NCBI GenBank assembly: GCA_904419525.1
Contig: CAJFRT010000005.1
Span: forward strand, 1 to 64,000
Source of the DNA: Candidatus Gallimonas merdae
GTDB taxonomy: Bacteria > Bacillota > Clostridia > Christensenellales > Borkfalkiaceae
Length of the DNA: 64,000 bases
Reading direction: 5' to 3'
In this document: positions 10,803 to 30,300 of the stretch, in pieces
Layout of the letters: each line of letters starts with the position of its first letter
How positions within the stretch are numbered: the stretch's first letter is position 1
Translations under genes and position numbers: made by a program
Notes under the pieces: model-generated
The model's database searches: none
What the model was told of the DNA's origin: nothing
The model's input: the letters and a program-made list of their open reading frames with translations, nothing else

Positions 10803-10828
10803 CGCAGGCAAAAAATGGTAAAACAGAC

Positions 10829-10858
10829 GCGGCGGCGACCGATTTCGGTCGCCGCCGC
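10829..10858 (+). terminator. GC-rich hairpin ending the pyr operon
   Basis: GCGGCGGCGACCG-ATTT-CGGTCGCCGCCGC gives 13 bp, but only a poor T tract (GCTATTCATT) follows. The AT-rich repeat starts 2 nt later and may have replaced the original tail. Confidence 0.6.
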
Positions 10859-10860
10859 GC

Positions 10861-11140
10861 TATTCATTGCCTTAAACTTTGCTTTTCGGGTTTGCTGAGG
10901 AATCTTTCCGTTTTGGTCGGTTGCATTGCTTCTTTCTGAACTCTTTGATGATTTTTCCGAACCCTATTGACAAATTTGATGTTGAGTGATAATATTCAGT
11001 TGTAAACCAAATGTTACGTATGGAGCAAGCTGGCAGAAAACAGATTTAGCAGAAAGAGAAAATAAAAAGACGGAGGTAATTCCAATGGGTATTTGATTTG
11101 GCGCAATGAAACGAATATGTTTTGTTGTGCTTTTTTGTTT
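10861..11140 (+). repeat. Direct repeat copy 1: promoter and leader cassette
   Basis: About 280 bp, nearly identical to 11808-12093. Both copies start at TATTcattgccttaaac and end at gcttttttgttt. Shared content is a sigma-A promoter, a leader with a GACGGAGG ribosome site directly before ATGGGTATTTGA (a 3-codon ORF) and an overlapping short ORF that looks like a cut-off signal peptide (MKRICFVVLF). This is the 377 nt gene-free stretch between pyrE and the first lipoprotein. No terminal inverted repeats were found. Confidence 0.85.
10967..10995 (+). promoter_or_regulatory. Promoter inside repeat copy 1
   Basis: TTGACA, 17 nt, TAATAT. It drives the leader and the lipoprotein gene at 11180. 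Confidence 0.75.
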
Positions 11141-11179
11141 ATAAGAGGGGTGAGAAGGTGTTTTGACAGGAGGAGGGCT

Positions 11180-11689
11180 ATGAAAAAGATCTTAAATATT
11201 TTATGTACTGCCATTGCGGCAGTATTGCTCTGCGGGGGAATAGCCGGATGTGCTCCGCAGACATACGGAACGTTTTATACATTGGAAGAAGCCTATGAAG
11301 CGGGGATCCTGACGCACGATGAACTGATGAGCATTGCATATTATCATAACGGCGGAACGCGTGGAAATGAAGCGATCATGGGGGAAGATTATGTTCCCAT
11401 ACCGAAAGATCCGCAGGAATTGAGCGAGGAAACGTCTTGGAAGATCTGTGAGACGGCGGCATATAATTACCGCCGAGAATATGAGAATGCGGAAGCGTCT
11501 GCGGACGATTTCAAAATTATCCGATACCATGGCACATACGGCGATTGCGTTGCAATTATGATGACGGATAAGTTTGGCGACTATGATACTGCTCTATGGA
11601 CAGTTGTTGTTGCAGATATTTCAATATTTTATAATAACGGAAATCGAATAACAATTTGGCATGAAAGCGAAGAAAACAACGGGGACTAA
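11180..11689 (+). CDS. Small lipoprotein with a YTLEEAY motif
   Basis: 169 aa, with a strong AGGAGGAGG site before ATG 11180; the longer ORF start at 11093 lies inside the repeat. Residues 1-23 are a lipoprotein signal peptide ending at the lipobox IAGC, so the mature protein should be lipid-anchored on the outer face of the membrane. The mature N-terminus carries FYTLEEAYEAGILTHDELMS, a short helical motif shared with the lipoprotein at 12884. The rest is acidic and not recognised. Codon usage is AT-rich compared with the flanking operons. Confidence 0.65.
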   Translation: MKKILNILCTAIAAVLLCGGIAGCAPQTYGTFYTLEEAYEAGILTHDELMSIAYYHNGGTRGNEAIMGEDYVPIPKDPQELSEETSWKICETAAYNYRREYENAEASADDFKIIRYHGTYGDCVAIMMTDKFGDYDTALWTVVVADISIFYNNGNRITIWHESEENNGD

Positions 11690-11722
11690 GTGTTGTGTCA
11701 ATTCAGTAAGGAGGAAAAACAG

Positions 11723-11824
11723 ATGAAAAAATTAAAAGTATTGACGGGAATGCTGCTCGCGGCAATCGTAGCGTCGGGCGCGGTGGGGGTCGGAACGGCA
11801 TCTGCGTTATTCTCATTGCCTTAA
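11723..11824 (+). pseudogene. Truncated secreted-protein gene (signal peptide only)
   Basis: An AAGGAGG site precedes a 33-codon ORF too short for the ORF track. It encodes a complete signal peptide (MKKLKVLTGMLLAAIVASGA, then a GTASA-type cleavage site) and stops five codons later, exactly where repeat copy 2 begins. The repeat appears to have replaced the rest of the gene. A genuine micropeptide is less likely because the signal peptide has nothing left to export. Confidence 0.6.
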
Positions 11825-12093
11825 ACTTTGCTTTTCGGGTTTGCTGAGGAATCTTTCCGTTTTGGCCGGTTGCATTGCTTCTTTCTGAACTCTTTGATGA
11901 TTTTTCCGAACCCTATTGACAAATTTGATGATAGGTGATAAGATTCAGTTGTAAACCAAATGTTAGGGATGGAGCAAGCTGGCAGAAAACAGGTGTCGCA
12001 AAAAGAGAAAATAAAATTAAAGACGGAGGGAATTCCAATGGGTATTTGATTTGGCGCAATGAAACGAATGTGTTTTGTTGTGCTTTTTTGTTT
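11808..12093 (+). repeat. Direct repeat copy 2: promoter and leader cassette
   Basis: Second copy of the unit at 10861-11140, about 286 bp and differing at few positions and small indels. Its left end lies inside the truncated ORF 11723-11824, and its right end is 29 nt before the lipoprotein gene at 12123. The leader ORF beginning ATGGAGCAAGCTGGC reads through to the MGI codons here, but stops early in copy 1, so it is probably not conserved coding sequence. Confidence 0.85.
11916..11944 (+). promoter_or_regulatory. Promoter inside repeat copy 2
   Basis: TTGACA, 17 nt, TAAGAT; same position in the repeat as the promoter of copy 1. Confidence 0.7.
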
Positions 12094-12122
12094 TTTTATT
12101 TTATAGACAGGGAGTGTAAGAA

Positions 12123-12797
12123 ATGGGGAAAATTGTAAAAATATTTGTCTGTCTTTTTTTGAGTACATTGCTGATGGCAGCAGGGGTGTTTACGGGCTGT
12201 ACTTCAAGCATGTATACAGAGGAGCAGCATATTCAAAGAATAAGAGAACGCGCCGAAGAGCGTTATTTGGGAGAGGAAAGCGCATACACAAGTTTAGAAG
12301 TTTATCCAATCTACAATGAGTATGATGAGCTGAAATACGCTCTCATTGAATTTGAACCGCAGGGGTTTCTGTATGTGGCGATCGGTGATCGATCGTATCC
12401 CTGGAAAGGGATGTACACGCTCAGTACCACAGAACCGGAAAGCTGGATGCCTTATCGGGTGAAGGAAGGGTTAAAAGAAGAAGTAACAGACGAAAATGGT
12501 CATGTAACGACGTTTTATGATCGCGAATTTTTTCGTGATGAAAGCGGACATGTGATCATCTATCAACAAAGTCATTTCAAGGTGGCGGGGATTGAAAATG
12601 AACGCCGCTATATATTGTCGATCGTATCGACAGTGCCCGGGCTTTATGGGGGAAGTCGGATTCCTGCTGTAAAGCGTGGAGAGCAGTATCTCAATCTTGT
12701 GGACGGAAATTTGATGGACTATGAACCCGGAATGGAGTCCGCAACATATGCGGTTGCCGATATCATTTTTATTGGCAAGTCTTATTTTGATTTATGA
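12123..12797 (+). CDS. Lipoprotein of unknown function
   Basis: 224 aa. The signal peptide (residues 1-26) ends with the lipobox FTGC, predicting lipid attachment outside the cell. The mature part contains beta-like segments (YPIYNEYDELKYALIEFEP; FLYVAIGDRSYPWKG) and an acidic middle, similar in feel to other Clostridia surface lipoproteins of unknown role. It is driven by repeat copy 2 and precedes another lipoprotein gene by 86 nt. No enzyme motif is visible. Confidence 0.65.
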   Translation: MGKIVKIFVCLFLSTLLMAAGVFTGCTSSMYTEEQHIQRIRERAEERYLGEESAYTSLEVYPIYNEYDELKYALIEFEPQGFLYVAIGDRSYPWKGMYTLSTTEPESWMPYRVKEGLKEEVTDENGHVTTFYDREFFRDESGHVIIYQQSHFKVAGIENERRYILSIVSTVPGLYGGSRIPAVKRGEQYLNLVDGNLMDYEPGMESATYAVADIIFIGKSYFDL

Positions 12798-12883
12798 GGA
12801 AGGGTTGCTGTATTTCACAACCGGAGATACAAGTTTTATTTATCTTTGGAATCAAAATTAAACAAGAAATAAAAGGAGGAAGC

Positions 12884-13366
12884 ATGGTAAAAAAATGTAT
12901 CTGCATCATATTGACAGGCATTGTGCTTACATCAACGTGTATCGGACTTGTCGGGTGCGGCGGGCAGAAACAGTTTTACACATTGCTTGAAGCCTATCAT
13001 CAAGAACTCATAACCTTTGAAGACTTAAAAACGATTCACAATGGCTTTGGGCAAGGCAGAAAGTTGAGCGAGGAGTCGCAGGCGAGCGTCAAGGCGGAAC
13101 TCATTGAACATTACGACGATCTGCGCGGGACGTTGATACGTTTTGAGGGAGATATCGATGCCAGCGAGACTCTGTGGGACGATCGGGAAGCAATAAAAGT
13201 AGAGTATTACTGTGGGAATTTCAGCGGGAAGGAGGCATTTTATGTAGAATTTTTGGAATCACAATTGCAATGGACTGTAACGATGGAAATTGCAGGATTA
13301 GAATTTAATATGGGGATCAATTGTTGGATCATCATTTGGACAAATCCGGATGGACTTAATGTTTGA
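12884..13366 (+). CDS. Small lipoprotein, paralogue-like to 11180
   Basis: 160 aa. The start at 12884 has an AAAGGAGG site; upstream codons of the ORF contain no signal peptide. The signal peptide ends at LVGC. Immediately after, FYTLLEAYHQELITFEDLKT matches the FYTLEEAYEAGILTHDELMS block of the first lipoprotein, although the remainder has diverged. The mature protein is acidic and has no recognised domain. The C-terminal part is rich in Trp, Ile and Asn. No separate promoter was identified, so it is probably transcribed with the gene at 12123. Confidence 0.65.
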   Translation: MVKKCICIILTGIVLTSTCIGLVGCGGQKQFYTLLEAYHQELITFEDLKTIHNGFGQGRKLSEESQASVKAELIEHYDDLRGTLIRFEGDIDASETLWDDREAIKVEYYCGNFSGKEAFYVEFLESQLQWTVTMEIAGLEFNMGINCWIIIWTNPDGLNV

Positions 13367-13393
13367 GTAACCCACCCGCTTTGGGTCGGTTAC
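13367..13393. terminator. Hairpin between convergent lipoprotein and XRE genes
   Basis: GTAACC...GGTTAC encloses ACCC-GCTTT-GGGT, about 10 bp in total with one unpaired C on each side. It lacks a T tract; it may act as a two-way terminator. Confidence 0.4.
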
Positions 13394-13465
13394 AAATTCA
13401 ATATAGAAAACCTTTGTAAAATTAAGGACGGAAGCTATGGACGACTCCGCGAACTTGATTTCAGA

Positions 13466-13906
13466 TCAGACTCTGCCGAGTAGGAAGTCCACGGAACAAC
13501 CGAAATATCCGGCAATTTTCACAAGGTTATCCACGGACGGAAATCTCTTTCCGGCCAGCCAGTTGTAAAAGACGCCCCACGAAACATCTGCTTCCTTGGT
13601 GAATCGATATTGCGTGGTGCCCGTCTCTTGCAGGATCTCGCGCAGACGTTCGCCGAACGGCCGCACGGGTTGATAGCGGATTTCTTCGCAGGGATATTCC
13701 CGGAGACCGAGCAGGAAATCGGCCGAACAGTGAAAATACTCAATCAAGGCGATGAATGTGGTATAGTTGGGCGCCCGTTTGGCAGTGATGTACGATGATA
13801 TTTTTGAACTGTTGGTATTCATTGCCTCAGCAAGCGTAGACTGATTCAAACCGTGCTCGTTCATGAGTTCTTGTAAGTTCTCGGAAAGATTCGACAAATT
13901 CACCAT
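13466..13906 (-). CDS. Double-HTH XRE-family regulator A
   Basis: 146 aa, start at 13906 (MVNLSNLSENLQELM), matching the start of the adjacent copy; the longer ORF runs into the upstream copy. It holds two Cro/C1-type helix-turn-helix domains, residues ~5-65 (LNQSTLAEAMNTNSSKISSY) and ~83-145 (TTQYRFTKEADVSWGVFYNW). Both end in a similar tail, CSADFLLG and CSVDFLLG, pointing to an internal duplication. It is likely a DNA-binding repressor. It is the downstream copy of a tandem pair and differs from copy B mainly in the first HTH. Confidence 0.8.
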   Translation of the reverse strand: MVNLSNLSENLQELMNEHGLNQSTLAEAMNTNSSKISSYITAKRAPNYTTFIALIEYFHCSADFLLGLREYPCEEIRYQPVRPFGERLREILQETGTTQYRFTKEADVSWGVFYNWLAGKRFPSVDNLVKIAGYFGCSVDFLLGRV

Positions 13907-13967
13907 AAAAACCTTTGTAAAAAACATGGATAGAAAGTATGGACGACTCCGCGAACTTGATTTCAGA

Positions 13968-14408
13968 TCAGACTCTGCCGAGCAGAAAGTCCACGGAACA
14001 ACCGAAATATCCGGCAATTTTCACAAGGTTATCCATGGACGGAAAGCTCTTTCCGGTCAGCCAGTTGTAAAAGACGCTCCATGAAATTTTTGTCTGTTTG
14101 ATGAAACGGTATTGTGTGGTGCCCGTCTCTTGCAGGATCTCGCGCAGACGTTCGCCGAACGGCCGCACGGGTTGATAGCGGATTTCCTCACAGGGATATT
14201 CCCGGAGACCGAGCAGGAAATCGGCCGAACAGTGAAAATATTCGATCAAAGCGATGAATGTTTTGTATCCGGGTGCATTTTTGGCATTCAGAATATCCGA
14301 TAATTTTGTACGCCCTGTCCCGAGCTGATCGGCGAGCGCTACCTGTGTAAGATCGCGTTCTGCCATCAGTTCTTTCAGGCTTTCAGACATTTTCGACAAA
14401 TTCACCAT
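13968..14408 (-). CDS. Double-HTH XRE-family regulator B
   Basis: 146 aa. Same architecture as regulator A: HTH1 at ~5-65 (LTQVALADQLGTGRTKLSDI) and HTH2 at ~83-145. Residues ~48-100 are identical in A and B, while the recognition region of HTH1 differs at most positions. It is transcribed away from the 58-codon gene at 14553 across a shared 144 nt intergenic region, the usual layout of a repressor and its target. Targets are unknown. Confidence 0.8.
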   Translation of the reverse strand: MVNLSKMSESLKELMAERDLTQVALADQLGTGRTKLSDILNAKNAPGYKTFIALIEYFHCSADFLLGLREYPCEEIRYQPVRPFGERLREILQETGTTQYRFIKQTKISWSVFYNWLTGKSFPSMDNLVKIAGYFGCSVDFLLGRV

Positions 14409-27346: not shown

Positions 27347-30300
27347 GCGCAGTGATGACGCCCGAACAGCAAAAGGCCGTTGCGGCGCGCGGAAAGATCA
27401 TCGTCTCCGCCTCTGCGGGAAGCGGCAAGACGTTCGTCATGATCGAGCGCCTTGTCTCCCTCATTCTCGGGGGCGAGGACGTGCGCCGCATTCTTGCCGT
27501 CACGTTCACCAACAAGGCGGCATCCCAGATGCGCGAACGGCTGCGGCTCGCCCTGCTCAAAGGGATCGCCGAGCGGGAGGGCGCGGAGCGCGAACGGCTC
27601 AAAGATCAGCTTGCCGCGCTTCCGTTGGCCGAGATCAGCACCATTCACGCATTCTGCGGCAGGCTCGTGCGCACCTATTTCTATGCGGCGGGCGTCGACC
27701 CCGCGTTCCGCATCACGGGCGCGGAGGACGCCGAGGGCATGGAACTCTCTGCCCGGGCGATGGACGCGGCGTTTGAGGAGGCGTACCGCGAAAAGAGCGG
27801 CGGATTTTCCGCGCTTCTTTCCGTCTATTTCCGCCGCCGCAAAGATGCCGCGCTCAGAAAGCTCGTGCTCGGACTGCATAAAAAGGCGCGCGGCCTTCCG
27901 GACTATGAACGGCTTCTTACGGACATGGGTACGTCCGATCGCTTTGACGAGGCGTGCGAAGGGATCATGTCCGACATGATCATGCGCGCGGACATGGTCA
28001 TAGGCGGGCTTGCCCGTTACGGACATGTCTATGCCGCGCTGGGGGAAAAGTTCGTTTCCCTGGCGCAGGAGCTGACCTCGGCATGCGCTCTCCTGAAGGG
28101 GCAGGGCGACCTGTTCGCCATGCGCGACGCAGCGCTCTCCCTTCCGCCGTTTGCGCGCATGCCGGTGAAGAGGAACGCCTCGGAAGAGGAGCGCGCCGCG
28201 ATCGCCTGCCTTTCGGGGGCGAAAAAGGCGGTGGGTGCGATCGCGGAGGAGCTCGGCGCGCTTTCCTCGCGTGAGGAAGAGGCGCAGCGCTGCCGGAACG
28301 CCTCGCAGACCGCCGCGGCGCTCGGGAAGCTCGTGCTCGCCTATGACAGGTATTATGCGCGGGAAAAGGCGGAGGCGGGCGTGCTCGACTACGATGACCT
28401 GGAGCACGAAGCGCTCCGGCTTCTGGACAACGGGGCGGTGCGCGCCGAACTTGCGGAAAAGTACCGCGCCGTGTTTGTGGACGAGTATCAGGACGTCAAC
28501 CCCGTGCAGGAGGACATTCTGTCCAGGCTGTCCGGCGAGGAAGTCTTTCTGGTCGGAGACGCCAAGCAGGCGATCTACGGGTTCCGCGGCAGCCGTTCGC
28601 GCTATTTCACGGAAAAGACGCATCAGCTGCCCGTTTCGCTCGATCTTTCAGTCAACTTCCGTTCGGCGCCCGCCGTGCTGGACGCGGTCAATCTGGTGTT
28701 TGCGCCCCTGGTCGAAGGATATGTGCCCATGCGGGGCGGCGAACGCTACGGAACGCACGCCGGCGAGGTGAAATTCTGGCTCCTGCCCAGGGAAAAGGCG
28801 GAGCGCACGCCGCCGGACAGGGTATACTCCGTGATGGAGCATACCGGCGAGGAGGAGAGCGATCCGCTCGGCGAAAGGGTGGCCGGGCTTGTGGAAGAGG
28901 AGCTCGGAAAGACGTGGTACGACGCGGACGCGGGCTGTGAAAAGAAGGTGACGCTGGGCGACATCGCGGTCCTGACCCGCCGCAGAGGGGGCGAGGCGCA
29001 GCTCGTCGCGCGGGCGCTTCTCTCGCGCGGGATCCCGGTGACCACGGCGGCGGAAGTCAACGTGTGCGACTTTTTCGAGGCGCGTCTGCTCATCGACTGG
29101 CTCTCCTTTCTCGACAACGGACAGCAGGATATTCCCTTTGCCACGGCGCTCCTGTCCGCCGTCGGGGGGCTGACGGAGGCCGACCTCACCAGGGTGCGCC
29201 TTGCCCCCGAGGGAAAGACGGGGTCCTTCCGCGAGGCATGCGCGGCGTTTTGTTCCGCGCACCCCGCCGACCCGACGGCAAAAAAACTGCAGGCGTTTTT
29301 CCGGATGGCGGAGGAGCTGCGCGCCCATTCCCGCGTGCGGACGGCGGCGGAAGTCATGAACGAGCTGCTCGCGCTCGGCCTGGAGGCGCAGATCGCTGCC
29401 CGGCCGGGGGGCGGGAGCCGTCTTGCGCGCGTGCGCCGTCTCGTGGCAGAGGGCGCGGACGTGAGCGTGAACGCATTTTTGTCCCGCCTGAAAGCGACCG
29501 GCTATTTCCTCGGCTTTGCGGAGAGCGGGGGCGAGGATTCGGTGAAGATCGTCACGATGCACGCCTCCAAGGGGCTTGAATATCCCGTCGTCATTCTTGC
29601 GGGCACGGACGTCCGGTTCCGCAGCGGCGGCGAACAGGACGAAGTGCTCTGGACGGATAAATTTTTCGCCGCGCCCAAGGCGTACGACGTGGAAAACAAA
29701 CTGTCGTATACCACCGTCGTGCGCAGGGCAAGCGCCCTGTATGCGCTGGCCGAGGAGCGCAAGGAGGAGTGCAACCTCCTGTATGTCGGCATGACGCGCG
29801 CAAAGTACCGCCTGCATATCGTGTTCCGCGAGCGCGAGGGCGGCGCGCTTTCGCCCCTGCTTGCCACGCGCGGCGCGGAGTTCTTTGACTTTCAGGCCTG
29901 CGCGCATCTGTTTGCGGCGGAGGAGGAGACGGCGCGCCGTGCGCCCGCCCGCCGTGCGCTCGTCTACCGCCCCGACGAGGCGCTCCGCGACGCCGTTCTT
30001 GCCGTCTACGGGCGGCCCTATGCGTTTGAAGCCAGTACGCGGCTGCGCGTCAAGAGCTCGGCGACCGACCTTCTGCGCGCACGCAGGGGGGAGCTGCTTC
30101 CGGGGCGGGAGGAGGATACATTTCTCGACGAAGAGGAACCGTTCGGGGGCAGGACGAGTGTGGAGGCAGGCATCGCATATCATGCCTTTTTGCAGCATGT
30201 ACGCTTCGGCGCGCAGCCGGAAGAGGAGCTTGCCCGTATGCTGCGCGAAGGGCTTCTGACGGCGGAACAGGGGGCGTTGCTCGATCCGGGCGAGCTGCAG

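Follow-up and report, generated by a model that had tools for sequence, protein, structure and literature searches.

The window, by which we mean the whole stretch of 64,000 nucleotides of Candidatus Gallimonas merdae that was analysed (contig CAJFRT010000005.1), contains a low-GC lipoprotein island at 10861-13390, between the pyrE terminator and XRE genes. The locus is flanked by pyrE, by genes for XRE regulators and by a P-type ATPase gene, and no recombinase was noticed among the ORFs around the island. In one relative (G001) and several others, pyrE and the P-type ATPase gene are direct neighbours; a single XRE gene lies between them in G028, and two XRE genes follow pyrE in G031, whose contig ends before the ATPase gene. 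In the window, a block of approximately 2.5 kb, in the order leader, lipoprotein A, mini-protein, leader, lipoprotein B and lipoprotein C, has been inserted directly 3' of the shared pyrE terminator. A second local duplication, of 300 nt with 88% identity (13392-13691 and 13894-14193), was found within a pair of minus-strand genes for double-HTH XRE regulators. The features of the island are as follows:

10828-10859, plus strand: pyrE terminator, common to G028 and G031; left edge of the inserted lipoprotein island
10864-11140, plus strand: leader cassette copy 1, direct repeat, 94% identical to copy 2
10967-10995, plus strand: promoter of copy 1 by its sequence, TTGACA-17-TAATAT with TG before the -10
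11072-11076, plus strand: Shine-Dalgarno (SD) sequence GGAGG of mini-ORF 1, conserved in relatives
11085-11096, plus strand: mini-ORF 1, ATG GGT ATT TGA (MGI*), identical in G027, G102 and G118
11100-11137, plus strand: predicted intrinsic terminator 1, a 14-bp stem followed by TTTTTTG, with covariation
11180-11689, plus strand: lipoprotein A, 169 aa, L-E-E-A-Y family, no Pfam family; putative first controlled gene
11723-11824, plus strand: ORF of a 33-aa secreted mini-protein, MKKLKVLTGMLLAAIVASGAVGVGTASALFSLP, recurring in G025 and G027
11813-12093, plus strand: leader cassette copy 2, direct repeat with copy 1
11916-11944, plus strand: promoter of copy 2 by its sequence, TTGACA-17-TAAGAT
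12038-12049, plus strand: mini-ORF 2 (MGI*), with its SD at 12025-12029
12053-12090, plus strand: predicted intrinsic terminator 2
12123-12797, plus strand: lipoprotein B, 224 aa, not homologous to A; putative second controlled gene
12884-13366, plus strand: lipoprotein C, 160 aa, distant relative of A, adjoining gene 3' of B

None of the lipoproteins received a Pfam or NCBIfam name above the cut-off. Lipoprotein B had no phage match, lipoprotein A had no plasmid match and the leader motif described below had none in viral contigs, and a reading of the island as phage or plasmid cargo was dropped for these reasons.

The two copies of the cassette lie 949 bp apart in direct orientation and are 94% identical over 281 columns, in agreement with the first-pass annotation, which had recognised two near-identical direct copies, each preceding a different lipoprotein gene. 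The similarity begins 4-5 bp 3' of the pyrE terminator in copy 1 and near the 3' end of the 33-codon ORF in copy 2, and the copies part right after the T-tract of the predicted terminator, upstream of each lipoprotein gene's own SD and ATG. No arms of terminal or flanking inverted repeats were found at the cassette ends, and a mobile element or MITE was therefore dropped as an explanation. The genome contains only two near-identical copies, tandem duplication is common, and the neighbouring XRE genes are duplicated too, all of which would fit an ordinary promoter with its 5' UTR that was duplicated once, the mini-ORF and the hairpin being incidental; the evidence against this explanation comes from the relatives considered below.

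Each copy contains the promoter and the ribosome binding site that had been noted previously: both promoters are good to strong sigma-70 type promoters with a TG ahead of the -10, and a leader of approximately 75 nt separates the promoter from the GGAGG. However, the conserved start region reported along with them is not the start of a lipoprotein, but a three-codon upstream ORF (uORF), ATGGGTATTTGA, encoding Met-Gly-Ile-stop, and an intrinsic terminator that had been overlooked. The hairpin of this terminator, with 14 pairs, starts 3 nt 3' of the uORF stop. Between the terminator and the lipoprotein ATG there is a gap of approximately 40-50 nt with no promoter inside, and because this gap leaves no room for one, transcripts of the lipoprotein gene must either cross the terminator or come from further upstream. 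Lipoprotein C is probably read from copy 2 as well.

When 398 genomes of the family, which include metagenome assemblies and are represented by one genome per species, were searched with the pattern SD + ATGGGNATTTGA, matches were found only in this genome (G000), in G025 (three copies), G027 and G102, and in G118, which belongs to another genus; the reversed pattern had no match in these genomes. A GTDB-wide collection yielded the same relatives only. Five leaders from four genomes have TCCAATGGGTATTTGAT without any change while their flanks diverge, and MGI* preceded by GGAGG is present in both copies in the window and in G027, G102, G118 and G025. Among these relatives the hairpin is kept with compensating changes, and the three G025 leaders keep the MGI* uORF in the absence of a clear terminator. 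These comparisons bear on the idea that the cassette is a free-standing small RNA gene of approximately 135 nt which came to lie beside lipoprotein genes by chance. Its own promoter and terminator could indeed yield a discrete short transcript, but no other promoter is able to serve the lipoprotein genes, within the genus no part is conserved better than the translatable SD-uORF, and G025 retains the uORF without the terminator, all of which makes such a gene unlikely.

The first-pass annotation had proposed a search of the genome for further copies, and this search recovered a diverged third leader (G000:C26), located before a paralogue of the lipoprotein A gene and carrying the uORF MGNLIRRSRA*, in addition to the relatives in other genomes. 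A first covariance model, built from six leaders, identified a further leader before a B lipoprotein in G013, and a second model, run on the whole family, extended the leaders to further genera, with the uORFs MEI*, MVILV*, MFYLI*, MVSLL*, MHNTF* and MNILF*. With a third model, built from 18 leaders, 50 genomes had a match at E<=0.01, a figure that overstates the true count, since matches above approximately 1e-3 are mostly ordinary terminators. Loci L155, L156, L189 and L195, G334a and most matches above 1e-3 were discarded as chance terminators or as gene-internal. A lipoprotein gene was located downstream in 11 of 15 held-out matches (E<=1e-4, not used for model building, 398 family genomes), which are not all independent, as those of G236 and G178a hardly differ in sequence and G113a and G113c are recent copies. 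As a background, the same lipobox pattern fitted 5 of 106 genes in the surroundings of pyrE in relatives, and 10 of the 54 genes of the window, the latter including obvious false positives. A few matches precede genes without a lipobox, namely an ABC transporter ATPase gene in G141 and genes for secreted proteins in G175 and G187. Four uORF-terminator leaders before lipoprotein genes were also observed in G113 (contigs C1, C9, C13 and C25), which makes this genome a good candidate for work on the regulon. The uORFs of the family are mostly 3-6 codons long, with the stop at or inside the hairpin, and longer uORFs extend into the hairpin in C26, G013 and others; their last sense codon usually encodes Phe, Leu, Ile or Val, and they contain no series of a single regulatory codon, although a few of the automatic start choices behind this tabulation (G027, G207, G175 and G107b) were clearly wrong.

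In the 18 aligned leaders, 94.4% of the hairpin cells were paired, compared with 38-56% when the alignment was slid, changes on both sides occurred in 7 of the 12 hairpin pairs, and the covariation score was reached by 0 of 500 shuffles; the alignment had been fitted to the model, which favours the hairpin structure. With 5-7 sequences only, the covariation of the hairpin did not stand out from that of shuffles. Lipoprotein genes of several genera are thus preceded by the same leader, in which the hairpin covaries and the spacing is fixed, and other genomes have their own dispersed copies, so that the family-wide search largely refutes a one-off duplication of an incidental mini-ORF and hairpin, which we now regard as very unlikely.

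The Rfam covariance models gave no match to the window region at E<=1 and, among 20 leader loci, only a tRNA at the gathering cut-off, and a known riboswitch or RNA family was dropped as an explanation. No conserved competing anti-terminator fold was found, and single-sequence folds vary between leaders. It is conceivable that the terminator is governed by a ligand or protein binding the leader upstream of the SD, the 60-100 nt of which could house a sensor, with the uORF merely marking the start of the stem. However, the upstream leader is conserved between genomes neither in sequence nor in fold, and Rfam holds no match for it, and there is little chance that the terminator is governed in this way. 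An upstream -35 box, TTTTTCCGAANCC, was also considered as an operator of a regulon and rejected, as its 10 matches in the genome (<=3 mismatches), against 1 for the control, were too few.

In seven genus-level leaders the SD-ATG arrangement is kept and the base of the hairpin lies at +15 to +19 from the uORF ATG. If a ribosome covers 15-16 nt from the P-site codon, then with codon 3 in the P site the modelled cover would extend to +22, and the hairpin in the window would weaken from -14.6 to -2.8 kcal/mol. In most other members of the family the uORF either has a stop codon that overlaps the stem or extends into the stem itself. According to this model, the geometry of uORF and hairpin is what a ribosome-dependent anti-terminator needs.

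We therefore consider it likely that each copy is a translation-coupled transcription attenuator, present here as a duplicated 5' unit and belonging to a family in which such leaders have repeatedly been copied before lipoprotein genes. Transcription would start at the cassette promoter and produce a leader RNA with a strong SD and a very short uORF, the stop of which touches the intrinsic terminator. When no ribosome is on the uORF, the hairpin would form and transcription would stop ahead of the lipoprotein gene. A ribosome that pauses on the final uORF codons would cover approximately 7 nt of the stem, thereby preventing the hairpin, and the lipoprotein gene would be transcribed. The function of the terminator and the direction of control are deduced from this arrangement, and the signal could be anything that slows translation of the uORF codons. 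Several observations weigh against this reading: the G025 leaders have MGI* but no clear terminator, the uORFs of C26, G013 and others are longer and enter the hairpin, no anti-terminator fold proved to be conserved, and a few matches lie before genes that have no lipobox. Alternatively, the uORF might be a constitutive enhancer of expression, through ribosome loading, mRNA protection or reinitiation, with a weak terminator. The SD is very strong, and leader ORFs have reportedly been proposed to increase translation by reinitiation (PMC4833913). On the other hand, the main ATG is located approximately 70-85 nt from the uORF stop, which is far for reinitiation, and covariation conserves a terminator for which a pure enhancer would have no need, making a constitutive role improbable.

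The copies in the window are likely products of a duplication of the 5' unit, or of gene conversion, and similar pairs of leaders before different genes were found in other genomes. The leaders G107a and G107b are 94.7% identical over 243 nt, G285a and G285b are 90% identical over 234 nt, and those of G145 are 84% identical over 126 nt. In G025, leaders b and c share 93% identity over the stretch from the -35 box through the lipobox Cys codon, after which they lead into unrelated mature proteins, while copy c has an a-like promoter. Furthermore, the B orthologue in G025 has no uORF leader, whereas the B gene in G013 has one, suggesting that the 5' units and the lipoprotein bodies have partly separate histories. 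Unequal crossing-over, like duplication or gene conversion, may have produced such arrangements. Upstream of the G025 B orthologue (L031 3190-3300), a 46-nt box that extends up to and includes the -35 is the same as in two adjacent uORF leaders; it is joined there to a short ordinary 5' UTR. The earlier suggestion of a movable 5' expression module is thus partly upheld by near-identical leaders before different genes within genomes (G107, G285 and G025b/c), except that the module is probably an attenuator rather than a promoter-RBS-start cassette. The recombination that had been proposed as the route between lipoproteins fared worse, since no sign of a recombination system was seen. Programmed recombination that varies the cell surface by switching promoters or 5' modules could account for identical 5' modules on different mature lipoproteins in G025. 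However, each gene has its own copy of the promoter, no silent partial genes were seen at the locus, no flanking inverted repeats were found and no recombinase was noticed among the ORFs nearby; hence we give this explanation hardly any credence.

Variable lipoproteins are expressed from expression-site systems in Borrelia (vls) and Mycoplasma (vsa/vpma), which likewise join 5' expression signals to different lipoproteins. The leaders described here differ from these systems in that no silent repertoire was seen at the locus, no recombinase was noticed and each gene has its own leader copy. In classical leader-peptide attenuators, the position of the ribosome on the leader ORF decides whether the terminator forms. 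The principle proposed here is the same, but the uORFs are mostly 3-6 codons long and contain no run of a single regulatory codon.

Another close parallel is the control of ARE-ABCF genes by attenuation with three-residue uORFs, for instance MR[I/M] for cplR and MIN for vmlR (PMC10201436). Like the attenuators of C. difficile cplR, B. subtilis vmlR and vmlR2 (MK[L/Q]) and Listeria lmo0919/rli53, the leaders in the window are short and carry a three-residue uORF, with an intrinsic terminator between it and the main gene. In contrast, the downstream genes here encode lipoproteins A and B, which belong to no Pfam family, and not ABC-F resistance factors; moreover, the uORF lies immediately next to the terminator, and a search for a conserved anti-terminator fold found none. 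The working principle is thus known from the three-residue uORFs that precede terminators of ARE-ABCF genes (PMC10201436), whereas the downstream genes and the leader family were not known before.

If the attenuator reading is correct, these leaders would represent an undescribed class of leader RNA tying the expression of surface lipoproteins to translation in uncultured gut bacteria, and a regulon would grow by the copying of a complete 5' module, with promoter, attenuator and sometimes signal peptide, before new genes. The third covariance model (R3) provides a searchable signature for this regulon. More tentatively, a lipoprotein regulon may extend over this family of gut Clostridia, with uORF-terminator leaders that sense translation, or the supply of hydrophobic aminoacyl-tRNAs, acting as the common switch of many unrelated surface lipoproteins. 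The whole 5' unit, in some cases with the signal peptide as far as the lipobox, would be copied from gene to gene and so bring new lipoproteins into the regulon; we hold this wider proposal to be possible rather than probable.

The 33-codon ORF between lipoprotein A and copy 2 had been regarded as a secreted-protein gene truncated by copy 2. This is doubtful, as the ORF recurs with unchanged length in G025 (where one copy is intact) and in G027, in each case immediately 3' of an A-type lipoprotein gene, and 103 genomes of the genus yielded no full-length relative. Because its stop lies inside copy 2, its final codons may stem from the junction. The signal peptide is conserved between this genome, G025 and G027, and the five C-terminal residues vary (LFSLP, FAPLL and QSVGM). 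The mini-protein could be a secreted peptide whose tail varies, or else a remnant that recurs. In G025 (L031 4517-4620), the mini-protein ORF ahead of leader a is frameshifted near its start, and the one ahead of leader b is intact. In addition, a different conserved long leader was observed in L020-L023 (approximately 1400-1800) and near 28700 of G000:C18, before small genes with SD-CCAATGTAC. It has only an extended -35 box, TTTTTCCGAAACCTATTGACAAA, in common with the uORF leaders, and looks like an unrelated conserved leader RNA.
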